Shown in pieces: positions 7,500 through 56,960 of a stretch of DNA of 64,000 nt (the stretch's first letter is position 1; every line of letters starts with the position of its first letter). The position numbers were made by a program, and so were the translations under genes. The DNA is from Sistotremastrum niveocremeum HHB9708 (lineage: Eukaryota; Basidiomycota; Agaricomycetes; Sistotremastrales; Sistotremastraceae), in assembly GCA_001630475.1 (NCBI GenBank), contig KV419413.1:230787-294786 (forward strand), given 5' to 3'. Under the pieces are notes generated by a model. It worked only from the letters and a program-made list of their open reading frames with translations, had not been told where the DNA came from and did not search any database.

Positions 7500-7724
7500 G
7501 GGCTAAAAGATCTTGGTATTACTACTGAAGCCTGACACTCGGTGTTCAGAAACAGTCGGGTTAGCGCGATTGAAGGCGTTAGCTTCCTCGGAGCGGATTT
7601 CGGCAGCCTCCTTCCTCTTGCCTGCAACCCGAGATCCATCGCGACGAGCGCAGGCTTTTGATTCGACGCGTCTATCGTCTAGGTTCCTGTCTGTACATAT
7701 ATCTAAGGAAACTGGAAGCTAAGG

Positions 7725-9481: not shown

Positions 9482-9675
9482 GCATTCCGAATCATCTTCA
9501 TACTAACCGGTACCATCGCCCTGTGCGCATTGGATCTTCGAGTTCTGGTTTGTCACATGTTGTCCGACAAGACTGTTACAAATATGGCTCATGACAAAGT
9601 CTACCCGTGTAGCAATGTAGTATTATCGCAGTGCATAGATTTATTTTGGCAATTTCGAATTTCCGATCACGACCT

Positions 9676-9905
9676 CTGTGCGGACGAACCAGGGGCCAAA
9701 AGCCCCAGGGCAAGCCCCACCAGGCATGGCACAAAGTCACGCCCCCTGGGGTTTTCGTACACGGCGCCGTGGCCAAAAACACCAGCCAGAGGGGCCGGAA
9801 CCTGGGGCTTTAGGCAACCGAAAATGTCCGGAAAGCCCCAGGGATATATTAGTAGAATAGGGTGCCGCCATAGCAGAAAACCCCAGCCAGCGGTGTTTTG
9901 CATCA
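9676..9905 (+). repeat. CCCCAG/CTGGGG hairpin repeat, copy A
   Basis: Opens with CTGTGCGGACGAACCAGGGG and contains several short palindromes built from AAAACCCCAG and CTGGGGCTTTT, for example around 9700-9760, 9772-9812 and 9880-9898. The opening 30 bases recur, inverted, at 12235-12263. This looks like a dispersed foldback-type repeat. No terminal duplication could be defined. Confidence 0.6.
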
Positions 9906-11139
9906 TGATAGCGGTAGCTTTAGATACACCACAGAATGACTAAAATATTCTCCCACTGGGCTTTTCGGACATGTACTGAAGGGTATCGCAAATAATATTA
10001 CGCTCATATTACCTGTCCTACAAGCCCGATGAATCCTACTGTCTCGTCCGCATTGCACTCATCCCATGCTTTTTACTCCCGTCTGGCTTTCTCGTCGCCC
10101 TCAGTATTCGAGTCCATCCGAACCACTTCCAAACCCCAAAAGCGCTTCATCGCTCCCCTCCTGGTCTTTGCGTCAACGTCAGGGCTTGAAGCTGGGAGCG
10201 GTGAGGCTGCTGTTGGAAAGGGATGCTCGGATCTGTGTTCGGAGCTCTTAGTGAGTGGAGAGCGTATTGGTGCGCATATATGGTACTCACTGAGCGCACA
10301 AAGGTCATGGAGCACACCGTCAGTCCATTCTTCCTGCGATATTCCACATCTCCAGCCCAGGTTGCAATAGTTCTTCTCACAAATCTGTGAGCGGTATTTC
10401 GAATGAATCATTGTCTCGGCTGGAATAAAAAAGAAAACTCGGCTCAGTAGCCTGGCTTTGCGGCTTGCCATTTCCCCCTCTCTTTTATAATGAGACACTC
10501 TAATCATCCAAGTCCTTCAATCTTGATCTTCTCCTCAGCATCCGTGTTCGATGGCGGCAGTCTTACGACTCCTTGAGTCGCGCATCCTCGGCATAAGAAA
10601 CTGATGCTAGAGCAAAAGTGAGCTGCGTTCTGGAAATTGAAGATGTAATCACCTCTGGGTCATTCAAATATTCGAGTCCTTCGAATACCGGAATGGACGC
10701 GTTCGAATGGGCAGTGGGCGGTCGCGCTGTATCCGTGGGTGATCAAATGCCAGTCGCATCTTGTTTCCTTCTCTGGGATCCTTCACTGGGCATCTCTTGT
10801 GTTCGTATGAGGCGTGCACATCAGTCTGGAGAGGTCGAGCTCATAGGAGGTAGAGACAGCATGAGTGCGGTGGTCGTCGTTGAGGGCAAAGAGCGCAGGG
10901 AATAAGCGCCGAGAGGACTTTGACGCTCCGATCGATCGCTCTCGATCGGAGTGTGGAGTTGGTCTCAACTTATGTCTAGGTGTGCATTTCCAAGCTTAAG
11001 GGTGCGTATATTGAATTTCAAAATCCATAAGAGCCTAGGAAATTGGTGGTTCCATGCCATGTTTTCGTACACAAAACTACATTTAGGAAGATGATACAGT
11101 GGTATAGCACTATGTACATAAGCTATGAGACTACATAAA

Positions 11140-11345
11140 AAATGACGGGACGGAAAACCCCAGCTGGAGTGCACATCCCCTGGGGCTTTTGAGTTGAAAC
11201 CTCAGGCTCGCGATCGACATGCCGTAGAACCCCAGCCAGTGGGGCGTCGATGTCCCGCCAAATTTGGGTAGCAAAGTCAGTGCGAAGAGTGACGTCATTT
11301 CCGAAAGGTTCCGACACGGGCATAACTCGATTTCGGTCCTGTAAT
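11140..11345 (+). repeat. CCCCAG/CTGGGG hairpin repeat, copy B (left arm of an inverted pair)
   Basis: Contains two hairpins (AAAACCCCAG...CTGGGGCTTTT near 11153-11191 and AACCCCAGCCAGTGGGG near 11228-11244) followed by a segment of about 75 bases that reappears, reverse-complemented and nearly identical, at 12090-12172 (TAGCAAAGTCAGTGCGAAG, TGACGTCATTTCCGAA, CATAACTCGATTTC). Confidence 0.7.
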
Positions 11346-11481
11346 CCGGCTAACTTTTGATCTCCGCTGCCCTCTCACCTGTTCTCGCCCGCTCTCCTCT
11401 CGTCCGTCCCTCTGTCACAGTGCTCTTTTCCAACGCGCCAAATTCCATCGAAACAACAGAATCTCGTGTCTGGATTGCAAG

Positions 11482-11745
11482 ATGAGGATATCAGTAAGTA
11501 TTGAGCCCCGGAATATAGCAAGGCTGAGACTGACTTCCATTTTCGCGGCTCGCAGTCTCAGTACGCGTCGAGACACGCGACAACCTCGCGGGGACTGGTG
11601 AGCTGGAGAATAGGAGGAGGAGGAACAACATGGCGGCTCAGGCGCAGTCAATGTGCGCGTAAATAGGCCCTTTCCCCCCATCTTCCGAGTCCTGCTCTCG
11701 CCATTCTTTTGCTTTTTCTTTCAGGATAGCATGTGCTACGGGTAG
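11482..11745 (+). CDS. Possible very short spliced gene (24 codons)
   Basis: The shape is that of a gene, although the product is not recognisable. A CT-rich stretch typical of fungal promoters lies at 11350-11420. An ATG at 11482 is followed by a perfect donor (GTAAGT at 11494), an acceptor at 11555, a second donor (GTGAGC at 11598), a strong polypyrimidine acceptor (CTTTTTCTTTCAG, 11724) and a stop at 11745. The exons 11482-11493, 11556-11597 and 11725-11745 keep one frame and give 24 residues. If the second intron is retained, the frame runs 40 residues instead. It could equally be a spliced non-coding RNA. It lies between the two inverted repeat arms. Confidence 0.25.
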
Positions 11746-12089
11746 TCATGCATTCCTATCCCTGTGTACTGTATTATAGATATCCAGAATACATGTATGT
11801 ACATCATTTAATGAAAGTCCGAAACACTCAAGTGAAAAGTAGCTCAGCCTATGTGTTTCCCTTGGATTTGTGATCTGCTGGTTTAGGTATCGCTGTTCTT
11901 AAGCAGACGACTAAATAAGCTGGTAAGGAGTTATAAAAATGTGGCGAGCGGATCATTTTTATAAGGTAATTTACATGAGCACGACTGAACCTGACATTGC
12001 TACGATATTCTCGAGCGAGAGGCTATGGCCTTGTCGCTGCGAAGTTGGCTTCGGCTGCTGGTGGCAGCCGAGCCGGTGTTGCGGAACGG

Positions 12090-12263
12090 AAATCGAGTTA
12101 TGTCCGTGTCGGAACCCTTCGGAAATGACGTCACTCTTCGCACTGACTTTGCTACCCCAAATTTGTTCCGGAAATGGCCGTGACATCGAAGCACCCGCCA
12201 ATAGGGCTTCTATCCCCGAAGCCCCAGTCTCGGTTGCTTTCGGCCCCTGGATCGTCCGCACAG
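12090..12263 (-). repeat. CCCCAG/CTGGGG hairpin repeat, copy C (right arm, inverted)
   Basis: Read on the minus strand it begins CTGTGCGGACGATCCAGGGG like copy A and then matches copy B, including the TGACGTCATTTCCGAA core. B and C form an imperfect inverted repeat around about 750 bp (11346-12089), which could mark a non-autonomous foldback element. Confidence 0.65.
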
Positions 12264-12422
12264 TCGACTGTTTTTAAAGCAAACAGACCTAGAGCCCTGA
12301 TGAATACTCGGGTAAACTACTTCAACGCTCCTCGTACAGCTCGAAACTATGCATTCACGAGCGGATTCATGACCTAGGCTTCCGGAAAGTGTATCTAGAG
12401 AGCTACCTAGAGCTGATTCAAG

Positions 12423-12910
12423 CAAGGGGCATGCACCGGGAGATGCCGAGACATCGGGTATCCGGGTTCGGGCCTGAAGAGCCCTTAAATAAATTTTTCG
12501 ACATATATTTTCGACACTTTCCTGGGCCTCACACCGGGATTTCCAGGTTGTCTGCTGCTCAAAAAGGCATATGCGCCTCCGCGACATTTTTCTCAATGCC
12601 CAGCTGACCACCCGAGTCCTCAGCGGCGTGACGTACGTCACCGGAGTGACACATGGTCACGCTTTCGCGCCGTCACACTTCCGGTCACTCTTGTGACACA
12701 AGAGTACCCTCGCTCAAACTGTGCCTCAAACAATGTTTGAGGGCGTTATAGCAATCTCCGTAGGCATGTAGTCTTAGCTGGATAAGACTTCAGAGGTCAA
12801 ATTAATATATTTATTATTTATCGGAATTTAAATATCGGGATCCGGTCCTCAGAGGCCTTAAATAAATTTTTCGACGTGATGTCGGAAAATTTTATCCTGC
12901 ATGCCCCTTG
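12423..12910. mobile_element. hAT-like MITE, 488 bp
   Basis: Terminal inverted repeats of 13 bp (CAAGGGGCATGCA at 12423; its complement ends at 12910) are flanked by a perfect 8-bp direct duplication, GATTCAAG, at 12415-12422 and 12911-12918. An 8-bp target duplication with CA-starting ends points to the hAT superfamily. Inside there is no transposase frame, but an internal direct repeat (12456-12502 and 12836-12877, sharing CTTAAATAAATTTTTCGAC) lies near both ends. The target site is in the duplicated 5' flank of F-box copy 3: the sequence right of the element continues the GATTGAAGGCGTTGGCTTC flank of copy 1. Confidence 0.85.
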
Positions 12911-13081
12911 GATTCAAGGCGTCGGCTTCTTCCCTAGTGTTTTTCTTCAAATCGGAATCGGAACTCGGCAGCTTGAAGCTGCCTGGTTCAGCAGTTCTGT
13001 CACCTTCCGTCGACTTGAGCGCATCTCTGCTGTATTATGACTTTCAAGAATACCATTTCTGGGAGACTGCGTCGTCTCACA

Positions 13082-14853
13082 ATGGCGGATATCCCAAGTG
13101 TGTCAGAGCTGTCGGCAGTATGTGTGGCATTCGAGACAAAGGTGATGGATGGAATGTGAGCAATACTACTTTTATGGGACCTAATGGCTCTTGTTGAGGC
13201 TTGCTATCGCAGTTAAGACCAGTTTCTTGGGGCACAGCCTTGCACGGAAAGAAGGAACGACGCTCGACAAGGTAGCTATCGGCTTCCGCTTTCGCGAATA
13301 CGTTCTGACGAGCTCATACGCGCGCAATGTTCCAGCCTTGGAAGAGATGCAAGCAAGACTACGCAACTCTATTTACTTTTTGAAACAACGGCACAATCTG
13401 TGCACACCTGTAGGACGTTTAACGGACGAGCTCATATCGAGGACGCTGCAATATTGTCTTTGGGAAGATAACCAGCCTTGGGAGACTTCGGGACGATTCA
13501 AATCTCCCTCGACATTCTCTCTGTGAGTCACTCAACATCTATGAAAGAGCGATACTAATGGTGTGACGCAGGTGTGCGAGATGGCGAAACATAGCGGTCA
13601 CGTCTCCAGAGCTGTGGTCCACGATCTACCTCCCGTGCGCTCCGAAATTGTTCAAGCTTCTCCGTGATAGAAATGGAAGTTTTCCGCTTTCCGTTATTAT
13701 CTCGAACGAGATGTTCGGCCTCAAAAAGTTACCCACGTCTCGGATTGGCTCCCGAGTGATGGAGCCTCTTCGCGAGATTGTCCCTCGCATCTCGAATCTG
13801 ACTGTCAAATGGGATGAGCGCAAATATAAGACACAGTCCTTTAATTCTTTGATCAACCAGCACATCGGACTCAAAGAGTTCACCATTCTTCAATCATTCG
13901 ACCTTTGTGGCACTTCCACCAGCTCCCCGGATAACACTCCTTGCACCTTGAACACGCCTTCCCTTCGCAGTCTGAAGGTAAACGCGGACGTATCCATTAT
14001 TCCTCGTATATCTCTTCAAAATCTCGTATGTCTGGACTACGAGTATCGGTCCATGAAGCCGACGCAAATCCTCGATTTGCTCTTACTGTTCCCTGCTCTA
14101 GAGCGTTGCTCGATAACCGATCTCAATCCTCAGTGAGAAGCAGCAGACAGAATGGATCATTCTATCGTTGTGATGGAGAGGCTTCAATTCTTATCAATCA
14201 AATATCGCTGGCTGGACGACGCGGATTACTTGTTGGATCATATCGAGGCGCCTACCACTGCCACCAAGATTATAAGTGTTTGGGGCCCGTCAGATGGGTT
14301 CGACGATTCAACCTTCGAGAGCCTGATCGGAACTCGTATGTCTTCGTGCGATAGATTGCAGATCATCCAACGATCTCAATCCTACGTCGCGACGCTCACA
14401 CCGAGCTCTGGAGGATTAATCAAGTTTCCATACGAAACGCGCGACTCATCTCATACCGTGGAAATCATATCATTTCTGACGCTCGCTATAGATCCCAGCA
14501 CCCTCTCTTGGATTGACCTTGAGATACCACACTTACCATCTGTGACAAAGCTCATTGCGTTCCTCCTCCCTTCGCCCCTCACACATATCAGCATCCACAC
14601 CCAAGAGACCAGCTTTGTGAGACTTCTCACTGCTCTCGAAGACACGCCCGACGTCGTTTGCCCCCGTCTGGAGAGCATGGACTGTACAGGCACACCTTTA
14701 AGCGCATCTCGCATGAGGAACTTTTTATATTTCAGAGAGGCCAAAGCGATTGCTCTTCGAGAGCTGAAGATCACGAAGGGTCTGTGTGACCCAGATGTCA
14801 ACAGCTTGGTCTCAATTATCGAAAACCTCATCGAAGTTAATGCAGAGTCTTGA
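13082..14853 (+). pseudogene. F-box/LRR-like gene, array copy 3, broken by two stops
   Basis: The exons align one to one with copy 1: 13082-13155, 13213-13271 (same 59-nt length), 13336-13522 and 13572-14853. Splice sites are all kept, but two stops lie in the frame: TAA at 13214-13216, where copies 1 and 2 have CAA/CAG, and TGA at 14134-14136 in the variable acidic loop. The rest reads through cleanly (GRLTDELISRTLQYCLW, CARWRNIAVTSPELWS, RELKITKGLCDPD), so inactivation is recent. A truncated product could still arise from a downstream start, for example the ATG at 14152, but it would lack the F-box. Confidence 0.82.
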
Positions 14854-22695: not shown

Positions 22696-23434
22696 ATAAA
22701 GTTTTATAGGACCTCCACGGAATCCAACGGAGATAATTGAAGCTCCGCTTTCGGATGATCGTGCTCATGACGGCATCGCTCAGATCATTACATAATGTTC
22801 GGTTTTCTCGCGAAGGTAGTTGGCTGCACGACTGCAGAGTTTTTTGGATATATCAGAGTCTGTATTTAATATCTACGAGGTGATATACATGGTAGAGCTA
22901 CATATCATATTAGCATGTCGGCCACTACAAAAATCTACAGGATAAACGGAATCTAGGTTAGAGGGGTACCAGATGCCTGGGGGCCAAGTTGGGGCAAGGG
23001 CCTGGTGACGAGAGGGCGACCGAAAAAGGGCGGCGGGGTTGCGGGCGTGTTCAGATGGCTAATGATAGGTGGATATGTTTGTTAGCAACGCGGTAGTTCT
23101 CTAACGGGACGGTCCACACTCACCTGAGACCCTAGACCATGTTGACATCCCACTACATCCCTTTTCAACCCTTCTAGCGCGCTCTTCTCTTGTTTACGGC
23201 GGGGCTCGACAATAGAGAGCGTCCAGCTAGGGGGGAGTCAACGGCGGGAGGCGGGGCCTGATATGTTGACGGCGGGACGGTCGACGAGGACGATGGGGGA
23301 AGGCAAGGAGGCGCGGTCACATGACGATGTTCGGATCCAAGGATCAGGGGCCACGGGGAATCCCGACTCAGCTCATCCAAAAGCGGAGTTTTTCTTATCT
23401 CCGTTGGATTCCGTGGAGGTCCTTGTAGTCAAGT
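22696..23434. mobile_element. Probable MULE-like MITE, about 740 bp
   Basis: A 29-bp perfect inverted repeat starts at 22708 (AGGACCTCCACGGAATCCAA...) and returns inverted at 23395-23423. The similarity goes on inward through CTCCGCTTT and GGATGA for about 50 bp. About 12 bp outside each arm lies the same 10-bp word TCAGGTTGAT (22686-22695 and 23435-23444), a likely target duplication of the length Mutator-like elements make. The outermost bases of the two ends match poorly. The interior is GC-rich around 22975-23060 and has no transposase frame. Confidence 0.6.
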
Positions 23435-24395
23435 TCAGGTTGATCGGCTAATCTCGAGGCATGTCGACCCCACTCGGCATCTGGGATATTCCGAGGTGAA
23501 TCGGGGAGGATATAGACCAGTCGACCTAGTTTTTGATGCAACTGGTTTATTGGGGAGCGCGATGACGAACTCTCAATAAAATGTCGGAAAAGGAGGATGC
23601 TGCACAGTACTTTTCTTTTACCGGTAGTATACAGTAGAACTTTCAAGTTGGAAGAGTTGCTCGAAGACGAACGGAATTGAAATACTGATGGTTTCCGTCT
23701 ACGATCGTAGAACATTGCATCAACTACCTAAGAAAAGCTTCTCAAAGGGTTCGAGTTGGTTGTTCGGGTCAAAACGGGAAGGTGATCGATCAACGGGATC
23801 ATCCGGCAGTCATCCGGCTTGCGCACCTTCGGCCGATTCCGGGTTGAAGCTCTCCCGACGGCCCGATGTAAGTTCAGTCTACACTAACGCTCCTGCACTG
23901 CGAGCCCTAAGCTCTCCTGAAGTCCATCTGAATTGCATCACGAATGAAATCCTGTCCCTCCCTGAATGAACATCTAGATTCGTAGGCCGGCTCCTCTGAA
24001 CAATCGGGTCCTATACATTCGAGCACGTCGCGATCGGTGCCGAACGATTCCGGTGACATCGTCTTTTCAAGCCTGTTCAAGCAACTGCACATGTGAGATT
24101 TGCCCGAGTCATCTGAGCTCAGCTGTCTCTTACTCTTGGGCTTTCTATCTTCGGTTCGATTCTCGCGGATACATAACAGACAGCTAGGGTAAATGCTAAG
24201 ACATCCGACTCGGATAATCATACGGTCGCAGGGCAGATGTCTAATGGTTCACCCTTATATCTACAGCCTATGTTTTTCGTTACTTCCTTGGCAGTCTGAC
24301 TACCCGTATTGACCGTCCGAGCTCGGATCCGGATTTGGCAAGGATCGCGACGTCGGCATCTGAGCTTTGTAGGAATCGTCATTTGGAAAATTGGG
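23435..24395. other. Gene-free stretch
   Basis: 5' flank of the hydrolase gene. Open frames of up to about 105 codons on either strand lack splice logic or domains. Nothing else supported. Confidence 0.5.
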
Positions 24396-33500: not shown

Positions 33501-35918
33501 GAACTTCTCGAAGTGATCGGTGGTGAGGGCTCGGGAAGAGGGGAAGAGCATAAAGGGGTGGGTGGGTTGAGGTTTTGTACTATCGAAGGGGATGGAGGGA
33601 ATGAAGGTGTGGGGGATAGTGGACCAACGGATGTCGGTGTGGAAATAGGGGTTTGGATTTGGGATTGGTTAAGTGACTGGAGTGATCCAATGGCCTTGAC
33701 ATTTTCCAGTGAGTTCTTAGCCGAAAGTTTCAACGGTTCAGGTCGCGATTTCGTTGACGATGATCGCGAGAAAGCAGACACAGGAGAGCTGGGTGTTTTC
33801 GGAGTCTTCGGAACTTCTGCTTCAACATCACCGTCCCCTCCAGACGTATCAGTCTCGGGTGGATCAGGGTTCGCGATAACAAATCCATGATGTCTCGGAC
33901 TTCCCGGCGATCCAGCGCTCATCTTACGAGACCGCGATGAAGATTTTCTTCTAGGCATGGGAGGAGAACGTGGAGGGGATGTCATAATACCACGGACCCC
34001 AGGGTTGGCAGTCGGCTCGGCGAATTGGGTAGGAGGTGAAGTTGGGGACAACGGTTGAACGCCTTGGGAGGACTCTCCTTCAGCAGATTGAGGTTGTTGA
34101 TTCAACTGCTGCAACCTCTTCTCCTCCAATCGGGCACGAAGGGCACTGGCCGCTCCACCACCAACGTTGAGAGGACTGACGCCGCCACCGACATTCACCG
34201 GACCAATACCCGCTCCAGTCCCTGATCTGAAACCCTCATCTATATCTCTCGGTGATAGTAATGGAGAAGGCATAGGGTGGGCAGCGCTGATGGGAGGAGA
34301 TAATGGTGCTAGACTTTGGGAATGTGACGAGAACGAATGGGAAGATCCTGAAGGTGATTCGAAGCCCGTATGCAGTAAAGGAGAGGGACCGGGACTTCCG
34401 ACTGTTGTCGAGGGGAGTGACATCTTTCTGGGCTGGAGACTCGAGAGGGGAGGAGGGACGTGACCGTGAGATCCAGTTCGGGGAGGTGGCAGAGGCCTTG
34501 ACGATTTTGAAGATTCAGAAAGAGATGTTGTTCTCGTTCTCGCTGAGACCGCATCGAGACTTCTTCTCGACGTGGAATCAATCGACTTCTGAGCACTGTG
34601 TGACGTCCCTTCACTCATCGTTCTCTCTCGTTCCTTGTCGTCTGGCATCGGTGGCAGAGGTTGCGTCCCGACTATACCACCCAGCATACTCAACCGCGAA
34701 GCACGGGAGGAGAGTTTACTCGCCAGGCTGTATCTGGAGTATCGATAATTGTCATAAATATCGGATGCACCATCCCATTCTCCGTGCTCGAGATCCGAAT
34801 CATCAGTGTGAGTGTGGGTTGTGTGGACGCTTGACGGAGACAGAGGAACGATGGGTGGCAGAGGCGGAGGAGGCGACAACGGGGGTTCTGGTGATGAGGA
34901 GAGAACCGGGATGTCCGAGACGAGGACTGTGTGATGGACATGGACGGTACTATTGTCGTGATTATCAGCTTCATCTTCTTCGTCATCTTCGTATCTCGAC
35001 TCTTCATCGTCTGACCCCATTCCTCCTAACAATGTCAACCCAATGCCTATCTTTCCCTCAATTTCTCCTTCTGAGAAAGCAGCCGATATTCGAGATGAAT
35101 CTTCGACCAGAGGTGGAGTAGGTGTTCGTGGAGGTGGAGGAGCGGTAGGGAGTAAATAGGGCGCAGGATTCTGTGGCGGAAGAGGAAACGAAGAAGGTGA
35201 CGGCGAAAGTGGCAATCCTGGGGATGAACCATCAATAGGGGAAGGGGAGGGCGCCTTTTCGACAGAAGAAGTGGTTTCAGGTGTGTCAAGGCGTGCTGGT
35301 AAGGTCACAGAGCGGGTATCGATCATGCCACCTCGACGCTTTTTGGAAAGATCCCTTTGCACTGATGTTATGTCATTTGGCGTCTGAGGAAGGGCGCTCT
35401 CAGGTGAAGTGACGATTGATGACCGACTAGTGACAGGGACGTCCGCATCTTCGGGAGAAAGCATGTATGTTTTTCTCGGCACGGGTAAAGAGAGTCGGGT
35501 GGACGGGTGGTCTGAGCTGATGGAGTCATGTTTGGGTATTGGAGGAGAGGGTACTGGAGATGTGCTGTGAACAGAGGCTGAAGCTGAAGAACGTTTCTGC
35601 TTGACAGGTTTCTTTAATTTGCCATGAAACTGCACGTCGCTGCCCAGAAAACGTCCTACGACGCCTTCGCAGTAACCCTGACATGTAACATCGTAAGTGG
35701 ATATTCCATGTTATGCCTCATTGATAACACGGGAAACGCACCAGAAACACGTTCTCCTCCGTGAGCTGCATTAGGACCACAATCTCATCGCCAGCGAGAA
35801 ACATCAAATCTTGGGTGCCCTCAGCGACTCGATCTTTCAGGGCCGTACATTTTCCTATCCCTCCCTTGGCCGCAAACCTCGTCCAGCGACCCAGGTCCGC
35901 CGCATCCATTGCGTCCAT
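30591..35918 (-). CDS. SH3-TBC domain protein, Rab-GAP-like, 1,720 aa
   Basis: Probable regulator of a Rab GTPase in membrane traffic. Exons 35918-35742, 35677-32814, 32759-31225 and 31177-30591. An SH3 domain opens the protein (about residues 8-75; DLMFLAGDEIVVLMQL, then GYCEGVVGRFLGSDVQF across the first intron). Roughly 1,370 residues of Ser/Pro-rich, presumably disordered linker with several PPPPPP runs follow. The TBC domain is at about 1450-1650. Its arginine-finger motif is canonical (IEKDADRYF, near 1489). The glutamine-finger motif is not: the usual YxQG reads YQAG (near 1525, across an intron). The start at 35918 is the first ATG of the conserved MDAMDAADLGRWTRF beginning; upstream sequence in frame has no ATG. 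A single large gene, not an operon partner of its neighbours. Confidence 0.9.
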
Positions 35919-38459
35919 GAGGTCACGGCTTGGGAGAGAGCCTTGGAAGCGAAGGCGCGAGTCTGGCTCGCTATCAAGCTCGGCTGCTATTGAATTTAGG
36001 CTATGACGCACGGGTCGAGTGCCAAATTGAGCTTGAGGGATATTAGGGTATTAGAGGCGATAAATATGTTCGTCGCCGGTCGATACAAAGTTGTTAAAAG
36101 AGTGTCGTGCGTCGTCGTCGTCGTCGGTGAGGAGAAAGGAGCTGAACGGAAGCGAAAAAGTTTTGGCTGTCGCCGTCACACTCGCGCCTGACACCAATGG
36201 TTGCAATCCCCACACTGCATCCACCGCACGATTTGAACACGCTTCCATGATCATCATCGCCGCCGCAACACATCCAATAATCATTAAATAATATTCCATC
36301 AAAGACGGCACCGACGTTTGCGGTCTCACAAAAATATGGACAATTATCGGAGTTTCAAACTCGTGCCTTGATAAAGCTTTGTTCAGTTTCTGGTTGATCC
36401 CGCATGTTCCCCTGAATTTAGGTTGCATCCGGAAAATACTTCAGCATTTGAGGGCATGAAAATCCCCTTTGAATCTTGCGTATGTGTCTGTCAGAGGACC
36501 TCGGGACCCGGGACGGACTGCTACTTGGACTCGACTACGTCGTCGACGTAACGACGTTATTAATCTATCACGGACGAACCGCGAGAAGCTGCAGAAGTTG
36601 ATGCATGCACATTGATCTCTTAGCACTTGCCTCGTGAACCCCATCAGCACAGGACAGCTTTTATGCTATATACAGCAGTGTTTTATTCTCAGGAAACTCA
36701 GCACTGTCGAACGCCAGCGTCATCTCATGCCTTCATCTTGATGAACTAATCCAATGTACGGCTCGGGATTGTCGGCGCCGCAGTCCTGGCACACTATACG
36801 CATACGAGGTCAGGCTGATACATCATCTTCCGTCAACTCTATCCGTATCGCACCTGCCCCGTCGCAATGAACTCTGCGTTGATATTCGTGCGCCAACTAA
36901 AGCTCTCGCAGAGCAAGATGCTATATCTCTTGGTCTCACGACCCTATGTCTACAGATTGACCTATTGTAAGACAATACGTTAACTCAAGCCAGGTTTCGC
37001 TCATCGCTTGAATGTAACCCTGCAGCACGCAGCTTTAACTGGCAAGGACAGCAATGTCCAACCTCATTTCACCATCAATTATCGATAGCAACAACTCCGC
37101 TTCGTCCTCCACATAGCAGATCGTAGGGCATTTCCTCTAGACTTGTGCGAAATCCCAGGCGGACAGCCTACCTTTCACGCAAAAAAGGGGCGTCAGTTTG
37201 ATCCCAAGACTTGAATAGGTTTGATGGCGAGCCGCACATTCTCCTCATGTCTAACACGATAGACAAGTACGCAATCTAATCGTTATTCGTCCTCTGCATC
37301 ACTCATTGATGTGCTCATTGGCCATTTCAACAACAGTTCACAGCCGTCGACGAGTCCCTATTCTCCCCTTCCCCAACTAAACCTTTCCATGGCGCGCTCT
37401 ACGTACCACGATTTGAAAAGGAAAATCTAACAAAACGATGACCCTTCCTCTCCTACAAGTCTCCCAAAACTCTCACATCCAAACCATAATTCCAATACTC
37501 GAATCCTGGATTTCTTTTGGTGGTCGGAAATTTGCCGAATGCCAAGGTTATGGAGACGTCAAAGTGTCTTTTCGAGACCATCTGCCCCCGATCTCCTCCA
37601 TGTGTATCGGCCGGTTGGTCAGATAGTATCCGCCTTTGAACTTCGAAAGTTCCACTGCCATGTTGACCTGACATATGAATCTCAAACGAAAGAACCTTGA
37701 TTGAACGATTGATCCACACCGCGCTTGCATTGCGATTCCATCAACGCACGCCTCTATTTATATCCCTCTGAGCACACTTTTCAAAACAATTATCAAGAGT
37801 ACGTAGAGGTGCGCGAAATTTATCCCTTCCGGGCCGGTCTCGGCCCATCGGGATTATCGGAGCCTTCGGTTTCAGCATGCCAAAAATGGAAGGCTTCCGT
37901 CGATCATCGATCGTCGCCTCTCGGAGCACCCCTTGAATATTTTGCACCACTTTTGCACCATATGACTTTTCGGCCTTCAACCTTATTCTCCTATCTATTC
38001 ACGGCTATCCGGCACAACGAAAAATTTTCATGGCTTATTACTAGTTATTAGACAGTATCGCGATGCGTAGAGCCGGAACGCTTGACTGATACTCGGAAGC
38101 CTCGATCTTTTCCGATCTGTACTTATCAGGCTCTCACCGAAAAATTTATAATCGAGTCTTCGGGAGGGCTCAAGGGCAGTCCCTCCGCCGTCACTTCCCA
38201 CCAAAGGAAACGAAGGACACTCAATCCGGCACATCTCTTGCCCCGCGTCCTATGGTCGGTCAAATTACATCCGCGAAGTCTTGAGTTTCTGACGACCGAC
38301 CGATTCTACAGTCATGACTGTTTCACTCGAAGGAGCACCATCTGCATCTCATATCCTTCCTCATACCGGCGAGTTCGAGAACGTCGGAATAGTCCTCTCA
38401 AAGGATCACAAATCCTTCGAGTAGACCCTCTAGAAAACTTCGCTCAGAATCCATCTCAG
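35919..38459. other. Gene-free stretch before the Gag fossils
   Basis: 5' flank of the TBC gene (a run of GAC/GTC triplets near 36108-36125 on the presumed 5' UTR) followed by about 2 kb in which I find no coding exon, no terminal repeat pair and no RNA gene. Open frames of up to about 135 codons show no domain. Confidence 0.5.
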
Positions 38460-39255
38460 ATCCAGGAAACTCGACGAGATCACTTATAGGCAAGAGATAA
38501 CGCCTCCGGCACCTCCGGTAGTCGACTCGAAGTCATCTAATTATGAAGTCTGGAGAGAGAAGGACGAAGCCGCGAAAGATCAGATTATCGGGAACATCTC
38601 AGACGATCTAGCAATCGTTCTTCGCACCGAAGCTACTGCCTCGGGAATGTAGAAGAAGCTCGTCGGAATCTTCGAAGCGCCAGATCGGACGAAAAAATCG
38701 CTGCTTTTACAGCGATATAAGGAGTTGCGTTATGTCGATGGCTCATCGATGCGCTCCTATATTTTGAAGCTGGACACGATTCGCCGAGAGCTGGCAAAGC
38801 AACAGCTGCATGTCTCGGACGAGCGCTACGTAGCTCGTCTGTTGTATTTCCTTCCAGAATCATGGAATCAGATCGTGCTTCTCTGTCGTTCTCCTCCACG
38901 ATCTGCGAACGAGGTCAAGCGGATATTAATCGAGGAAGAAGAAAGCCGCGTTCGTCAGGGGATATTTCCAGAAGTCACAGTCAACTCTCGACCTCATGAA
39001 CCCCCTGCAGCTACACCCGAACCAAGCAACCCTCCAGCTTCGGCACCCAAGACGGTCCCGTCTGTCAGCGATCAAAGTGTTCCTGACTCGGAGGAGCCAA
39101 CTGGAGAGCCAACTGGAGACCTTTCGCGAGCTCCGCGAAGGAAGAAGCGAGCGTTCTGCACTTTCTGTGGACGTAATGGGCACAAAATATCCAGTTGTTG
39201 GGCTCTTGAGGAAGCCCATGATCATCAGCTATGGAGCAGAGGTTGGTATGGCTGA
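38460..39255 (+). mobile_element. Ty1/copia-type Gag fossil 1 (broken)
   Basis: Remnant of a Gag gene of the LTR/copia kind. Recognisable parts are the copia Gag core (LRYVDGSSMRSY region) and a CCHC zinc knuckle near the end. It is closest to fossil 2 next door. It appears broken, with roughly one or two breaks and a decayed beginning. No protease, integrase, reverse transcriptase or LTR is visible on either side. Likely old, because only the Gag part survives and it has drifted well away from fossil 2. Confidence 0.75.
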
Positions 39256-39963
39256 GAGCCTGAGACCAGAGACATGGACAGATGGGATTCAATTGGATGG
39301 AGACCTTCTGATAGTGGCATACATCGGTCTTCCTCTCGCCAGCTTTCTGGGACGGGCCGGAGATACTCAGTGAAGGAGAACCATTGAGGAGTGGCGATAA
39401 ATTCACACCAGCGGGCAAGCCAGCGGGGTTAAGGATTTCCCCACGAAATTCTTACCAGAATGTTATAATATATTTATGCATGCATGTAATTTGGTCGAAT
39501 CCTACGAAGTACCAGTACACCCAAGTCACCCTGCTGGATGAACTGGTAGATTTGCCTGCATCGGCGCGCATGTACTGCAAGGACTACTGTAGCACTCCTA
39601 AATTAATCTCGCCGATCGCCCGGGCCGACGGCTACTAGGAGTCATGCCGCCATTTCGGCATCCCCTTATGTAGCCGATCATGCATACCCAAAATGCAACT
39701 CCCTTGTGTTTTCAGGAGCCTCAGGCTTGTGTGTCTCACAATTCTCTCCTGTCGCAATAAACTTATAATCACAGAGGTTTCACTAGGGGGTCTTCCGGAG
39801 AGCCTTTCAATCTTTCCGGCACAAGTCATCCAAAGAGTCTTCGATCCACTCCGAATCTTTGCCCCTCCAGTTCAAGTTAGCTCTTGGAATTATCTGGTCA
39901 GTAGAATCACGCTCGTGGCCACTGTGTTTTGACTCTATACGGATTTTGACCAGACCTCGAGTA

Positions 39964-40893
39964 ATGGCCTTGATCCCGCACTCCACCACCGACGCCTTAG
40001 CGCCTCCCTTTGGAGAGTTTAAGGCTATCGGAGGGGGTCTGACAAGAGAGGATAATGCCTTCACTTGGGATCTGTGGAAATCCGCAATGATTTCCTGGCT
40101 CAAGTTACGGAAACTCGACAAAATCACTCTTGGACAGGAACTGAAGTCATTCGACAGCGAGTCTGCTGCTTACAGACTCTGGCAAGACAAAGACGAAGCG
40201 GCCAAGGACCAAATCGTTGGGAACCTGTCTGACGAACTGGCCGACTTCGTTCGCGGCGAAACCACAGCTGCAGGAATTTGGTCAAAAATCATCGCCGTAT
40301 TCGACGCCCCCGATAAGGCTCAGCAAGAGTTACTCGTTCGCCGCTATAACGAGCTACGATACGTCGACGGGTCGTCCATGCGCTCTTACCTCATCAAGCT
40401 GGACGTGACTCGCCGCGATTTGAAGAAACAACAAATCGACATCACAGACGAGAACCACGCCCATCGTCTCTACAGTCATCTTCCCCCGTCATGGAGCAAC
40501 ACTGCCCTCATCTGCAGTATGTTCCGAAGATCCCCGAGCGATGTTAAGCGTGTTTTACTCGAAGAAGAAGAAGTCCGAGTTAGGAGAGACCCACTGACGG
40601 AGGCTCTCGCAGCTGAACCTCAGGCATATCATCCAGTCTTTCACTATCAGTTCCAGTTCCAACCCCTCGCAGCAACAGGGGCTCACCACGCTCCCGGTAT
40701 TCCTGGGGTGCGGGAGCCCAGGATAGTGCTCTCGAAAGCAGAGCGAAGGAGCCTCCAACATTTGCTCGAGAATTCTCGAGTGTCTCAAGCCGTGTGTACT
40801 CATTGTGGGCGCAGGGGTCACAGGGCAACCAAGTGTAAGGCTCCTGGCGGAGCCCATTATGTGCCGGGATGGAACCAATGGCGTCGAAACTGA
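39964..40893 (+). mobile_element. Ty1/copia-type Gag fossil 2 (looks whole as a stand-alone Gag)
   Basis: Copia-type Gag of 309 codons: an N-terminal part, the Gag core with the LRYVDGSSMRSY and SHLPPSW blocks, a variable proline/alanine-rich linker and a CCHC zinc knuckle (C-x2-C-x4-H-x4-C) close to the end. It looks whole as a Gag but stands alone. Nothing of the pol part and no LTRs are found within several kb, so the parent element is long gone. Whether the host has kept it for its own use cannot be told from one genome. Confidence 0.8.
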
Positions 40894-41670
40894 TCATTCT
40901 TACGTTTGCGCGAAAGAATAGCTTTGAATGGACAAAACTAATGGTCATTCGAGCCACTGTCTTACATTATTATATAAGTTGACCTATCAAGTACTAAGTA
41001 GTAAATTATATTTATTGAGTTATCTCCTACAAGAGCGGTTGACAGTGAAACTGCATGTAAGCTAGCTCGAAGCAAGCCATCTACTAGGAAAAATTAGTAA
41101 ATGGAAATTCCTCACGAAGGCTGTAGCATACATACGGACCTATGCGAAAGTGCCCGAGCCGTGGCTGATGATCTGCGTGCGCCAGTTCCATCGAGAGTGG
41201 TCCATCATAGCTTCGGCCGATTTACATGTCAGGCACAATAAACCCCGAAAATTCGGGAGAAATTCGCCACATTACCGCACGAACGGCGACGACTCATAAA
41301 GGCCTTGACGACGGCTAAAAACCTTATCAGATTCGTTATAGCAAGCAAGACGGTCCGTGCTTACGGATAAATTGAGCCATCCCACTTTCTGCTGCCCTCA
41401 TCACTTCCTGCGAGAAATCGACAAGTGACAAGCCTTCTCAACCAGTAGATCCAGTCTTGACAAAACCGCTCATACTACTGTAAGATATCTTTATAGGTCG
41501 TATGCTCAGATCGCGAATTCCACTCACACTCAGCTTGCAGTGTCACGGTAAATCTGCTCCTCGGGCATCGCCTTTGCGTAAAAGCTTGTTAAGCTCTCTT
41601 TCGTTGTCGTGAGTGCCTAACGGGGTCTTCAGGAGCTTGTGCCTGATTGCTTTCGAGTTATCAGTATCAA
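40894..41670. other. Spacers between the Gag fossils
   Basis: This 0.8-kb spacer and the similar one at 39256-39963 hold no pol-like sequence, no LTR pair and no other gene. They are about equal in length, which fits a tandem arrangement. Confidence 0.5.
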
Positions 41671-42585
41671 ATGACTTCCATCTCGGCGGCAGACCCACCT
41701 GTCGCGCAACCTCCCATTCAACTACTACAACCTACCAATGCGGCTTCGACGAGCTCTGCGGACGGCATTAAGCTGACATGCAACAACTGGGTTGTCTGCA
41801 AAGCCGACATGATGAAACGACTCCAAGCTGAAGGATTGTGGGATGTAACAACCGGAGCGGAGAAGAAGCCACCGGGTACTGAAGTCACCCCTGAGCTAGT
41901 GCTCTGGGTCGAGAAAGACATGAGGGCAATGACGAAGCTCATGCAGAACATGGCCAACGTGTACACACTCGATGCTTTCAAGGAGAGAAGGGCGGCGAAG
42001 ATGTGGGAGAATCTTCTGGAGCTTTTCGAATCGCCGAACCCCCCTCTTCTTCGAGAATATCACAGCCTTCAATATGTCGAGGCAGCTTCACTGGAGGCTC
42101 ACTGCCTGCGTCTGGACTTCTGTCGTCTTCGATTAGAGGGGCTGAATCGTCCTATCAGTGACGAAGTTCACCTCACTCGCCTCCTCAGCTCCCTCCCTCC
42201 CTCTTGGACGTTCGTTAGGGATTTCTGCCAGCGGCGGAACATTGCCATCGGAGAGATTGGGCAAATATTACTGGAAGAAGAAGCAAATCGTCAGGAGGAC
42301 GCGATACGTGAGGCGCGCAACTTCAACGCCAGACACCAGAGTAGGAGCAGCGCATCTCGTCGTAGAGGGTCGACTGAAGGTCATCGAACGGGTACGAGAG
42401 CTGCGACGAGAGCAAGTACCTTCGCCAGAGAACGAGCGGACCGACGAAACCCAGGCCCTGCACCCTACGAACTCTTCTGCACCCACTGTCGACGCAATGG
42501 GCACAGAGCAGTTAATTGTCGAGCACCTGGAGGCAATCGGGAAAGACAGCGTTCAGAACGACGTCGCCACACGAACCCTCACTGA
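41671..42585 (+). mobile_element. Ty1/copia-type Gag fossil 3 (looks whole, most divergent)
   Basis: Third Gag of the same orientation and size class (304 codons), much more divergent: the LRYVDGSS block reads LQYVEAAS, while the SLPPSW block, the LLEEEA block and a CCHC zinc knuckle (CTHCRRNGHRAVNC) remain. The stretch before the knuckle is Arg/Ser-rich. It looks whole as a stand-alone Gag, with no pol part or LTR. The divergence from fossils 1 and 2 suggests either a separate old insertion or a very old duplication. Confidence 0.78.
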
Positions 42586-43391
42586 CAGTAGACCCCAAAG
42601 AGCTAGCAAAAACGTCGAGAGCGGTGAGGCCAGCGCTGACTCAGCAAGCCTGGGAACCTTACAATTAGCGATGAGCTTTCGGCTCTGACGCTCGATTTAT
42701 TTCGGATCGTACAAGTACAACTGTAGTACATAAACGTATCATCCGCCAATGTATATGTGAGGCTGATCCATATAGGCTTCGAATATTATGTTAGCAAGAT
42801 GTCCAAGTCGGTCCGTCAATCCAGACTCAATCCAAATTCACTCTCCAGTCTCACACGAATAAGGGCGTCAAATGGCCAGAAAAGCAGGTCGATCTGTTGC
42901 GAGCTCAGATCCAAGAAGAGAGGACGTCAGAGGTACTTTCTCTCCCGAAGAATCCGGGATGATCATGAGGCTACTCGTCCCAAACGGCACGGTTTGACCA
43001 GTCTCAGGATGAGGTGGGTAGCCGGTATGAACACGGATCGCGAGCGCTCTCGATAAAGGACGGGGGGGGGGGACTGCGGGCGGTAGAGTCAGAGAGACAG
43101 GTGTCAATCAACCGGTATGGAAGTAGACCACCGATGCCTCGCACGTCGATTAAAGATATCGATTCGCAGGTATAAGGAGCCCAAATGCACGGGTCGAATG
43201 CATGTGTCCAAGAGAACGTAGGGGTAGGTGCCTGCAATACCAACGGTAGACCGCAGTGGTTTTGATAGAACAACTTGGTAGGATTGGAGAAGGACAGGCG
43301 AACCGACCACGGGAAAAGTTAAGAACGTGGTAAAAAGACCGACGGCAGGTACCAAGATGAGGACAAGAATTGAGATATATTCCATCACCCG
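42586..43391. other. Gene-free stretch
   Basis: Convergent region between Gag fossil 3 and the next minus-strand gene. Contains a run of ten G at about 43063. A 94-codon hydrophobic open frame on the minus strand (43388-43104), starting just after the stop of the membrane protein gene, is probably its 3' UTR. Confidence 0.45.
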
Positions 43392-44372
43392 CTACGAGCC
43401 GTCCAGTTCGAGCTGATTGGTTAGGCCAGATGGCAAAGCGGTCTCTGCAACAGCAGAGAACAGCTGTTCTCGAGTAGGTCCGCGTCTCGGAACTGCTTCG
43501 CCGTCGAAGACCCCAAACCCCATATCCTCGTCGCTCTCCTCCTCCTCAGCTTCATCCAAGAGCGGAGGCACCTCGTCTAGCAGGCTATCCTCAGAGTCTC
43601 CCAGTGGCATAGCATCCCTTTCCGGCGGTCTAAGCGACCCAGAAGAGAGCCTCTGGTTAAGTTCTGTCATTTTTATGTGCAACTGAGCGTTGGCATCTTC
43701 TAGCGCATGATGGAACAGGAAATCCATACTTTGAATTTCAGGTTCTGGGTTGTCGATTACAGTGGATGGGAAGGAGGATGCGGTCGTAGAGTCTTGCGTA
43801 TCGAGAGCGTGAGCCGCGCTATCAGGATAGGGGCGTGGGGTTTCTCTGAGTGAATGGAATTTGGCGAGATTGGAGTAAAGCTCTGCCTCGCGAGCTGCCA
43901 GTCGCGCTTGCTCAACAGCAAGCTCAGCTTGTTTGAGAGCCACATCAAGTTTCTCCTCCTTCAATCGTAGTAGCGATCGCTCATTCGTCTCATCTATAAC
44001 TTCAGGAACGGATTCTTCCGCCCCCTGTTCATCGCTGACGTCTTGGACAGCGTATCGGTCTTCGTAGTAGTGTTCCGAGTGAACGATAGGAACTATCGGG
44101 AGACGACTGAGAGTCAGAACGCAAGATGTGCAGAGACAACACCCACCTAGGAGAGTCGCTAAGATCACCCCAACAACAATGCCACTCATAAAGTTGGTCA
44201 CGCCCATGTAGCTGAGTTTCCCGGCCCAAGGACATGGTGGACATCCAGTGGGGGTTGGGAAGGAAAATGTAGATTTCGTAACGAATAAGACTTGTGCAAG
44301 ACTGAAGCCAAAAGTCACGATAAAGGCGATCGCAGCCAGAATCCAGAAGAATGAGGTTCTATAGGATGCCAT
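43392..44372 (-). CDS. Two-TM membrane protein with coiled coil
   Basis: Single open frame of 326 aa. Two hydrophobic segments lie near the N terminus (about 8-31, FWILAAIAFIVTFGFSLAQV; about 60-85, FMSGIVVGVILATLLGGCC), followed by a long hydrophilic tail with a Glu/Ala/Leu-rich coiled coil (about 130-175, LKEEKLDVALKQAELAVEQ) and a strongly acidic part near the C terminus (DEAEEEESDEDMGFG). The ATG at 44372 is the first in frame, but open, coding-like sequence continues about 25 codons upstream without an ATG, so a short upstream exon may be missing. I do not recognise the family. It is unrelated in sequence to the neighbouring Gag fossils. Confidence 0.7.
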   Translation of the reverse strand: MASYRTSFFWILAAIAFIVTFGFSLAQVLFVTKSTFSFPTPTGCPPCPWAGKLSYMGVTNFMSGIVVGVILATLLGGCCLCTSCVLTLSRLPIVPIVHSEHYYEDRYAVQDVSDEQGAEESVPEVIDETNERSLLRLKEEKLDVALKQAELAVEQARLAAREAELYSNLAKFHSLRETPRPYPDSAAHALDTQDSTTASSFPSTVIDNPEPEIQSMDFLFHHALEDANAQLHIKMTELNQRLSSGSLRPPERDAMPLGDSEDSLLDEVPPLLDEAEEEESDEDMGFGVFDGEAVPRRGPTREQLFSAVAETALPSGLTNQLELDGS

Positions 44373-44617
44373 TCGAGCCGCACCGTTGATAACGTTTTGG
44401 AATTGGGATCTGGTGGCCGTGGTAGCCCAATGCCAGGGTGGTCGAGAGCAGTGAGAGCAGATTCATCAGGGGCTGAGGGAGTCCAGCGTCGTTCGCAGAT
44501 CCGGTCTCCGATCCGGGCGTTTCTTTGGAAATTCAGTAAACCTGAACTCAGAGTATTGTTTATTGTGGCGAGTCTGTGCGGTGCTACTTTTCGTTTGGCG
44601 TGTAATATGGTACAGGT

Positions 44618-46275
44618 TTAAAATTGCAATATATACAGTTCAGGAAAACTGCGAACATCGTGATGTCTCACATACACTCGCCCATACACTTCATCGATCC
44701 CCAGGATATATAACTTTGAGAATGAAAACATATCCGGACAATTCGGCCCAAGACTCATCCGTATCCATTTAGCACTACCTTGGGAAGGATTAACCAGGAA
44801 GAAATTGAATGTGTCATGCTGACGATCCAGGTATGCGAGCATACGTCTTCCGGCGATGCCCTGGATATTCCTTTCAGGGACGGGTGGGACCGACATACAT
44901 ACGGGTTGAGTTTCATCGTCTTCAGTGATCATCGTTGCTTGAAAGCGATAATTCAAATGTGACATGATGTTGGCGACAGCGACGTCTTGGCCGCCTAGAC
45001 TATCGACAGAATAAAGTGCTAGAGTCGGAATGGAGTCGAATTCTGAGAGTCTTTGACCACGCAACAGCTGGACGATTTTGAAAGGTGAGATGATGATTTC
45101 TGGCCACGAGTCAGGGTCCCACGCTGGACTAGGAAGATTGGAAAGTGTATGCGGGAGGGGAAGCTTGTACATCCAGCTCTGGCCATCTATTTCCGCTGAG
45201 ATGACGACCGTTCGTTGGGAAGATTGAATATGTCCGTCACGTAATCTTATTTTCTGCCGCCATATGTTGAGCTTCATTTTTTCAATAGACAAGTTATTAG
45301 TGAAATTACCTTCCGCGGGAATTGACAGGAAGCGCTGTCAGAGGCTTCGGTTTCACACACTATGACTTTGGCTCCCTTCAACCGACGCCAATCCATTAAT
45401 GCGAAACAGGCACAATTGGGGCTCGACGAATTGTCTCGATCGAGAGAGAAAAGGGCAAGAAAATCTCCTTTGAGTGAGGCCCGAAGATTCGTACATTCTT
45501 CCGTAAATTCCGGTACAGCGAAAGTCTTCAGGATACATGTCTCCAGGTGAATTTCAGCCCGTGCCACAGCACTTCGTATGATACGAATTTGAATAATGGA
45601 TATCGTCCTAAGGCAGTAAATCAACTGAAGCCGAGTCCTTGCGGAATGATATTGAGACCTACATGTGAGTTATGGGTGTCCGTTGGCAAGATTCTCCATT
45701 CTCTACAACAGCTATGCGGATGTAGTCAGCCGCGCCGTCGTCGGCTACCGCGAACGCTCTCCAATTCTTCCATGAGAGGAGATATGATGCTGCTGGGGAG
45801 CTCGAAATCAGTAGCCTAAGCCACAGATAATCATCCTGCTCAAATACTGCCAATTCGTTCCCTGGCACGATGTATCGGAGGGAGCCACCCGTGATTGGAA
45901 GATGAAGATAATGCGAGCTGGGCCCTTCGGCAACTCTGCGAACGTATAATGGATCAACAGATTCTTGACTCCAGCGCTCTTGAATATGTTTCGCTCTGAG
46001 TGCAAGGGGCAACAATGCATCCAGCGGCGCTGTCTCTAGCGTGATGCCGGTTGCGAAGGGAAGGCGGTATCTGTCATGAGAATTGGACCAGGCTGAGCGA
46101 AATCTCTGGATGATGTAGTATAAACGTCTTGATGTCTATGTTTCGGAGTCAAAGGGGGTATGGATATATCGGAATCACGAATACTAACACAAGCAAAGCT
46201 GGCAATATCATCGATCGAGGAGCCATAAATGATGGCTAAAATGAGTTCGGTGGGCAAATCAACGAGATGAGGCAT
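44618..46275 (-). CDS. F-box protein with propeller-like C-terminal region
   Basis: Predicted SCF ubiquitin-ligase receptor of a type distinct from the five-gene array. Exons 46275-46189, 46135-45663, 45571-45310 and 45253-44618 give 485 aa. The protein opens at once with the F-box (MPHLVDLPTELILAIIYGSS, IDDIASFAC), whose end lies after the first intron (TSRRLYYIIQRF). The rest consists of repeated WxxW/DxDDYLWLRLL-like strands (VFEQDDYLWLRL, AFAVADDGAADYIRIAVV, FLALFSLDRDNSSS, RMLAYLDRQHDTFNFFLV) that suggest a beta-propeller, as in other agaric F-box proteins starting this way. All junctions keep frame. The target is unknown. Confidence 0.82.
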
Positions 46276-56223: not shown

Positions 56224-56960
56224 ATGGCCGACCGTCTCCCTGAACTTCCACTCCCCGCAGAGATCGCAAAGAAGCTCAAAGATCCTTTCCAGAAAGCATG
56301 GAACGACTCTTTCCTCAAGGGCCAAAAATATGCATGTGAACAAGGAGGGTTTATCTTCATCAGTACGTCATTCCATCCCCTACATCCTCTCTGATTATTG
56401 AAGTATCTTGCTTGTCTTAAGCTCGCTCGAAGCCGAAGGAGATCCGAGCTGTGCGAGCTCGTGCTGGGGAAACTTTCCTCCAAAGACCTTCAGATAAAGT
56501 TCCGAAGGATAGCAACCCAGGCATTGATCTCAGCCGTGTCATAGGCGCGGGCAACGGCAGCATCTTGCGTACGTTATACAATCTTCAATCTTCTCTCAGC
56601 ATTTTCGTTGACTCATCCGGTGACATAGTGGGCACATTCCACACCCATCCCCTCCGCGAAGACAGAGCAAGTCCCTACCCCAGCGACGCTGACACCGATA
56701 ATGCATGGAGACGACAACTTCCAGGATTCGTCATTGGCCGTGCAGGAATTATGCATTATGGATTGGAGTATAGGGAAGATGCGAGGAATCCGGGAGGATA
56801 TCCGCCTCAACCGCATGGGTCGCGAACGGTCTATAGGTCTCATAAAGTGGGGAATAGGCCGAATAATGCACCGTATCAGAAAGATGATGCGCTTTGGGAG
56901 GAAGATTTTGATGAGGAGGGTGGTCAAAGTAGTACTGCGGACTCAAATCCTGATTGTTGA
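56224..56960 (+). CDS. JAMM/JAB-fold protein, DUF4329-like
   Basis: Exons 56224-56362 and 56422-56960 encode 225 aa without signal peptide. All elements of a JAMM metal site can be read: a Glu in the ACEQGGFIF strand (about residue 39), then VGTFHTHP (about 133-140) and, after a 10-residue loop, S-x2-D in PYPSDAD. HxHP...SxxD with an upstream E-x-GG is the pattern of MPN+/JAB zinc peptidases, and the EQGG...HTH layout is closest to the mostly bacterial DUF4329 group, by memory of the family. Eukaryotic JAMM enzymes (Rpn11, Csn5, AMSH) are longer and have HxHP immediately before x7-S. The C-terminal about 50 residues (RTVYRSHKVGNRPNN) are polar and end in an acidic stretch. Peptidase activity is inferred from the motif only. 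Confidence 0.72.

Follow-up and report, generated by a model that had tools for sequence, protein, structure and literature searches.

The 64-kb window analyzed here (the whole stretch of DNA examined, 64,000 nt; contig KV419413.1, positions 230,787 to 294,786, of Sistotremastrum niveocremeum HHB9708, assembly GCA_001630475.1) contains a tandem array of three stand-alone copia-type Gag frames, designated u1, u2, and u3, around which no pol gene and no long terminal repeat (LTR) was detected. With a probability of roughly 55%, we favor the reading that the three frames make up a small Gag gene family that arose by local duplication and has been retained by the host, with u1 recently broken. The observations behind this reading are the homology of the three units, the open frames of u2 and u3, the lack of detectable LTR or pol, the low pairwise ratios of nonsynonymous to synonymous substitution rates (omega), and the lack of a closer copy in the searchable genome. 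The units presumably diverged at this site, to some benefit of the host.

Structure of the array and identity of the Gag frames

Unit, spacer, and feature coordinates are positions in the window, and C-numbers denote contigs of the assembly, with the array on C20. The three units are paralogous Gag frames, each with a copia-type capsid region (Retrotran_gag_2, PF14223) and a CCHC knuckle, that lie head to tail on the plus strand. The first, u1 (38314–39255), has 313 codons, including three in-frame TAG codons, while u2 (39964–40893; 309 aa) and u3 (41671–42585; 304 aa) are intact from ATG to stop. The distance from ATG to ATG is 1650 nt between u1 and u2 and 1707 nt between u2 and u3. A preliminary description, made from the letters of the window, had reported three Gag-like CCHC frames of similar size and spacing in one orientation, two of them whole as Gag, and these lengths and distances agree with it. 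Its start of the array at 38460 has to be moved, as the actual ATG of u1 lies 146 nt earlier, which exposes the first two stops.

For PF14223, the matches cover 40138–40587 in u2 (E = 3.2e-21) and 41821–42300 in u3 (E = 2.6e-16), both on the plus strand. The match in u1 is split in two, with E = 2.1e-14 for the larger piece and E = 0.0055, under the Pfam cut-off, for the other. A knuckle with the pattern Cx2Cx4Hx4C is found by pattern match close to the C-terminal end of all three units, namely CTFCGRNGHKISSC in u1 (39157–39198, plus strand), CTHCGRRGHRATKC in u2 (40795–40836, plus strand), and CTHCRRNGHRAVNC in u3 (42478–42519, plus strand); the scores of the Pfam knuckle models on these units are under the cut-offs of those models. 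The stop follows the last knuckle Cys after 18 residues in both u1 and u2 and after 21 residues in u3. Protein identity is 41–44% between u1 and u2 and 29–31% between u2 and u3. The longest stop-free run spans 368 codons, compared with at most 220 in 300 base shuffles of the window, and a chance origin of the frames is therefore excluded. With both the capsid region and the knuckle present, the units are, as judged from their sequences, copia-type (Ty1/copia) Gag frames.

Structural comparison points in the same direction. In the model of u2, residues 121–210 have a predicted local distance difference test (pLDDT) score of 69–83 per ten-residue block, and the top, though weak, Foldseek match is the Drosophila copia capsid 8vvw (E = 0.028, probability 1.00). 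Further matches include Arc, Ty1 p22, PNMA2, and PEG10, with Drt2 at rank 19. The copia capsid also comes first by sequence in phmmer (E = 0.0019).

Lack of detectable pol and LTRs

The preliminary description had also presented the array as free of pol and LTRs, and this held in every comparison made. Among the 22 matches to RVT_2 (reverse transcriptase) in the assembly, none is on C20. When two copia polyproteins were cut into 300-residue pieces and searched by tblastn, the array gave Gag matches only, with no pol. Over 35720–43391, three pol-piece profiles and a protease profile derived from a pair of Gag-protease frames gave no signal beyond noise. The control locus L048 is matched by the protease profile and by the first pol-piece profile; the second and third have no control locus that holds these pieces. 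Direct repeats of at least 30 nt are absent from 36000–45000, besides two coding matches. No LTR was detected in spacer A upstream of u1 (37300–38313), and neither LTR nor pol in spacer B between u1 and u2 (39256–39963), spacer C between u2 and u3 (40894–41670), or spacer D downstream of u3 (42586–43391), which is bounded by a 356-codon open reading frame on the minus strand (43392–44462). The neighbor of the array on the upstream side is a TBC-domain gene. In direct orientation, none of the six spacer pairs stands out as an LTR pair against 60 shuffles each, and spacer B has no direct similarity to the others. Likewise, nothing stands out in 24 comparisons that set spacers against LTRs from three further Gag families in this genome, the best being equaled by 1 of 60 shuffles. 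The LTR pair of a TR-GAG-like element was not found at the array; any LTRs once present would have diverged by more than about 0.3 per copy or been deleted.

Two weaker signals were recorded in the spacers. The heptamer TTATCAG, the core of a stretch resembling a primer-binding site (PBS) in the Gag-protease element of C20, occurs 12 times on the plus strand of the window, with three occurrences in the array spacers versus 0.6 expected (p = 0.025, post hoc). This excess is a possible hint of former LTR elements and fits host recruitment and mobile-element readings alike. A loose PBS motif has 16 matches in 36001–43400, every one with two mismatches. Separately, an inverted 71-nt similarity between spacer B (39444–39514) and spacer C (41198–41266) beat 60 of 60 shuffles; it was rejected as an LTR trace, being one of 12 spacer tests (six pairs in both orientations) and in the wrong orientation. 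Outside the array, a weak tblastn match to a copia pol piece from C3 lies at 23637–23792 (E = 0.011, 31% over 52 residues).

Relationships of the three units

In the trees, u1 and u2 are sisters (support 99–100), and the three units form one group in four of four trees with moderate support (93/91, 85/85, 90.7/88, and 87.3/88); two of the three later trees used 18 of 24 rows, with six dropped. The sister group of u1–u3 is a pair of Gag-protease frames, and support for the group of all five is 99.8–99.9/98–100 in the three later trees and 86/77 in the first. One of the pair belongs to an element on the same contig as the array (C20:110927-113654), which has 450-nt identical LTRs and an AGGAC target duplication, is inserted in a gene that is F-box/LRR-like (leucine-rich repeat) by eye, and shows no integrase or reverse transcriptase. 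The other is an open frame (C83:2611-4263) that is 62% identical to it and retains a single LTR remnant (68% identity). Although nearest in the trees, both frames differ from u1–u3 in carrying a Pol_BBD region.

Identity between u1–u3 and this Gag-protease family is 27–35%. Near-identical Gag in an intact element elsewhere in the genome, which the preliminary description had named as an argument against recruitment, was sought in the searchable genome and not found; the closest relative outside the array is a Gag-protease frame at 35% at best. At the DNA level, no further copy of the 7.7-kb array stretch was found in the searchable part of the 34.7-Mb assembly, in which repeats may be missed. 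Given their common end position, the Gag-only form of u1 and u2 is probably older than their split.

Selection and the age of the open frames

Pairwise omega for u1 and u2 is 0.278, with a likelihood-ratio test (LRT) statistic of 49 against omega = 1, under a model in which about two neutral substitutions per site separate the pair. In the capsid core the same pair gives 0.155 (LRT 56), and u2–u3 gives 0.42 (LRT 16). Third codon positions are the most different in all eight pairs examined. Pairwise values against the mobile frames mostly hit the distance bound and were not used. Of the two ways of asking whether omega is near 1, which would speak against recruitment, the pairwise one gives values below 1, whereas tests on single branches are not significant.

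A stronger argument than pairwise omega or the single-branch tests comes from the open frames that lack detectable LTRs. When LTR pairs of 134, 205, and 450 nt were simulated, those that had accumulated 0.2 substitutions per site per copy or less were recovered in no fewer than 39 of 40 trials at each setting. Under neutrality, a u2 or u3 frame would still be open at 0.1 substitutions per site with p of about 0.0005 when stops and frameshifts are counted (2000 trials each), a figure that assumes frameshifting indels at 0.07 per substitution. When stops alone are counted, p is 0.03–0.04 at 0.1. At 0.2, p does not exceed 0.005. No LTR is detectable at the array although pairs diverged up to 0.2 are found, and therefore, if the LTRs were lost by mutation in situ, both u2 and u3 must have been kept open. 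Both are open frames without detectable LTR or pol, as in a domesticated Gag gene, and u1 is not open. On this ground the earlier proposal of host recruitment is favored, while its original argument, from the loss of pol, fails.

A number of results weigh against host retention. The clock just described fails if the LTRs were deleted, for which two deletions could suffice. Outside the capsid core, omega among u1–u3 is 0.46–0.74, with LRT values of 4.5, 3.8, and 0.6, and purifying selection there is accordingly weak or absent. Differences between u1 and u2 at codon positions 1, 2, and 3 are 0.44, 0.34, and 0.57, compared with only 0.28, 0.23, and 0.56 for the Gag-protease pair, so that constraint on u1–u2 looks weaker than in the mobile Gag-protease lineage. 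Single-branch tests of omega = 1, made on a five-row tree with saturated distances, give 2dlnL of 3.81 (u1), 2.12 (u2), and 0.31 (u3) for the whole span and 4.02, 0.12, and 0.52, respectively, for the core, where the u3 estimate is unusable; these tests do not reject omega = 1 convincingly. The support for monophyly of u1–u3 is below the usual 95, and neither the grouping of u1 and u2 with the Gag-protease pair (p-AU, approximately unbiased test, 0.116) nor, strictly, that of u3 with the same pair (p-AU 0.058) is rejected. No flanking similarity between units, which would prove local duplication, survives in the spacer comparisons. Finally, the u2 model was predicted from an alignment of three rows and is of poor quality as a whole (mean pLDDT 49.5), and no Foldseek match reaches E = 0.001 or better.

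Pol-less Gag elements in the genome and alternative origins

At least 27 PF14223 matches are present in the assembly, and their positions were compared with the list of RVT_2 matches. Eight of the 27 are in single long frames of 1365–1518 aa, seven of which contain a listed RVT_2 match; the eighth, on C40, is only partly covered by the searchable sequence. For five others, an RVT_2 match lies on the same strand no more than 8 kb away, and the remaining 14, with u1–u3 among them, have none in that range. Four of these 14 have an exact LTR pair and a 5-bp target duplication. Besides the Gag-protease element on C20, these are Gag-only elements at C1:83848-85331 (134-nt identical LTRs) and, as two copies of a single family, at C43:157058-158782 and C6:873549-875273 (205-nt identical LTRs each); a further copy of the latter family, on C10, has one LTR in two pieces. 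This one fungal genome accordingly has two families of Gag-only LTR elements of 1.5–1.7 kb. Inside the LTR-bearing Gag elements are stretches that we take to be PBS-like and purine-rich. A pair of LTR fragments lies 2.7 kb apart on C52, with an interior mostly outside the searchable sequence; the mobile Gag forms may rely on the pol of a partner element whose LTRs match theirs. Among the remaining PF14223 matches, that on C2 continues beyond the stop of its frame, C6:614809 has a stop, C5:28293 is under the family cut-off, the match on C49 has pol pieces nearby, and C21:185318 adjoins the edge of the searchable sequence. Around the Gag-only element of C6, the segment C6:870000-879000 has several direct repeats of 248–300 nt with 84–90% identity, perhaps a segmental duplication.

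Pol-less Gag is common in this genome and has been mobile recently, as follows from the identical LTRs and 5-bp target duplications in three Gag-only or Gag-protease families. The lack of pol at the array therefore says little, and the view of the preliminary description that survival of Gag without pol is unexpected has to be given up; the array can be explained without decay of pol and survival of Gag. Full copia elements that simply decayed are not favored as its source either, since the nearest relatives are Gag-protease frames and the single-frame copia polyproteins match u2 at only 21–28% and u3 at 29%.

The most serious alternative, less probable than host retention and still a real contender, is that u1–u3 were inserted separately from a vanished pol-less, TR-GAG-like family of Gag-only elements, diverged while mobile, and later lost their LTRs by deletion, in which case u2 and u3 would now be neutral, with too little time elapsed for their frames to have been interrupted. 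The mobile elements described above, with their identical LTRs and target duplications, make such a source plausible, and the C83 frame, which is a second case of an open frame outliving its LTRs, illustrates LTR loss around an open frame. The low pairwise omega could equally have arisen during a mobile phase, and the TTATCAG excess is compatible with this scenario as well. However, LTRs would have to be lost at all three units, by two or more deletions, with both open frames left untouched, and three insertions would have to share one orientation and similar spacing. Local duplication accounts better for the grouping of u1–u3 and for the stop position that u1 and u2 share, and no relative above 35% was found in the searchable genome.

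It is improbable that the frames serve mobile elements rather than the host by supplying capsid in trans, a possibility named for plants in the available text on TR-GAG elements (PMC8704663). Elements without integrase and reverse transcriptase have moved recently in this genome and must have borrowed these functions. However, no LTR was detected at the array, so nothing there is likely to be mobilized as an element, and there would be little selection for assisting others in trans.

The broken frame of u1

The three in-frame TAG codons of u1 (38422–38424, 38431–38433, and 38650–38652, plus strand) each align with Trp in u2 and also with Trp in both Gag-protease frames, and no frameshift is visible in the protein alignment of u1 with u2. 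Under a plain mutation model, three of three stops being Trp-to-TAG changes has p of about 0.001 with u2 as the template and 0.0004 with u3, for a pattern that was spotted post hoc. Protein branch lengths are nearly equal (0.66 for u1 and 0.62 for u2), and u1 has therefore not long been free of constraint. Polarized counts give 78 u1-specific versus 55 u2-specific changes with the Gag-protease pair as the outgroup, and 117 versus 102 with u3 as the outgroup. We read these data as suggesting that u1 was broken recently, after constraint for most of the time since its split from u2. Hypermutation was rejected as the cause of the stops, given that the dinucleotide indices of u1 (0.54 and 1.19) resemble those of the window (0.63 and 1.20).

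Changes within TG pairs (TG-context transitions) are a common mutation type, and this, together with the after-the-fact recognition of the pattern, the excess of u1-specific changes, and base composition without a sign of hypermutation, makes it very unlikely that u1 is alive and its TAGs are read through or changed in RNA, even though all three stops stand at conserved Trp sites in a frame without visible frameshifts and on a branch barely longer than that of u2. Editing of UAG stops in RNA is described for filamentous ascomycetes in PMC11156358 and PMC7306014; according to PMC7306014, editing of premature stops had not been reported on in basidiomycetes, which also counts against it.

Putative function and comparison with known systems

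Under host retention, the site would have been settled by a single ancestor, drawn from the copia-type lineage that is represented on C20 by a mobile element with Gag-protease only, and at least two local duplications would have followed, in which u3 split first and u1 and u2 later. Selection would have kept u2 and u3 readable after their LTRs decayed beyond recognition, and u1 would have been kept for most of the time since the u2 split before its recent breakage. The full combination, namely a tandem family of whole Gags from a Gag-protease lineage that the host kept beyond the lifetime of its LTRs, with two working genes whose products assemble into capsids or poison them and a third broken or recoded, is put forward more tentatively and falls somewhat short of an even chance.

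Proteins that retain a capsid domain together with a knuckle presumed to bind RNA, and that have no recognizable enzyme, would be expected to act in trans by joining capsid assemblies. The simplest outcome may be poisoning of the particles of related mobile elements, for example those of the Gag-protease family. A less likely alternative is an RNA-carrying capsid of the host's own, similar to Arc. Capture of Gag is well known in animals, where Arc, PEG10, and PNMA2 are of Ty3-type origin and the Arc capsid carries RNA. Like these genes, u1–u3 are Gag-derived capsid frames without a mobile element; unlike them, they are copia-type.

A closer parallel is DRT2 of Saccharomyces cerevisiae, a domesticated Ty1' Gag that acts as a restriction factor, published in 2024 (PMC10951436). 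In the available text of PMC10951436 and PMC12530519, it is a Gag remnant at a fixed site that restricts Ty1' and is associated with its particles or assembly complexes. In both cases a Pseudoviridae (Ty1) Gag sequence has stayed behind as a separate gene at a fixed position in a fungal genome and retains its capsid domain. However, going by the same accessible text, DRT2 is p22-like with the C-terminal capsid domain, whereas u1–u3 are whole Gags with knuckles in tandem; the DRT2 locus is rich in LTR remnants, whereas no LTR was detected at the array; and DRT2 derives from the subfamily that it restricts, whereas the nearest relative of the array is a Gag-protease frame at 35% identity or less. 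By analogy, DRT2-like restriction would most likely be the mechanism for u2 and u3 and the most economical one, with the Gag-protease family as its natural target. Whether their proteins could assemble jointly with a Gag-protease Gag at 27–35% identity is uncertain, because DRT2 had no significant effect on canonical Ty1 mobility, according to the part of PMC12530519 available, despite the 78.9% identity of Ty1 Gag to Ty1' Gag.

TR-GAG elements of plants, as characterized in the accessible text of PMC8704663, encode Gag in a single frame and lack pol. That form is matched by the Gag-only elements with LTRs elsewhere in this genome, whereas u1–u3 have no detectable LTR or target duplication. 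The class described for plants is extended by these fungal LTR elements, which encode Gag alone or Gag-protease and are flanked by target duplications; a keyword search of the literature (TR-GAG or gag-only with fungi) found no paper on fungal TR-GAG elements and returned matches on sunflower only. If the array is indeed host-retained, it would be a second independent Gag capture in fungi, this time of whole Gags, in tandem, and from a Gag-protease lineage, and capsid genes would have been recruited repeatedly outside animals. It also offers a testable system, with a Gag-protease relative that has identical LTRs on the same contig. A scan of viral contigs gave 202 pattern matches, none of which was confirmed.

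Other features of the window

Repeated open frames that are F-box/LRR-like by eye occupy 5343–14740; one of them was scanned and had no Pfam match at 0.01, and three copies are alike, with 63–76% DNA identity over pieces of 146–300 nt. Two pairs of inverted repeats, at 11260–12163 (85 nt, 91% identity, 734 nt apart) and 22708–23423 (51 nt, 90% identity, 614 nt apart), are possible non-autonomous DNA transposons. Finally, a frame at 56421–56957 has a weak match to Prok-JAB (E = 0.00012), under the Pfam cut-off.

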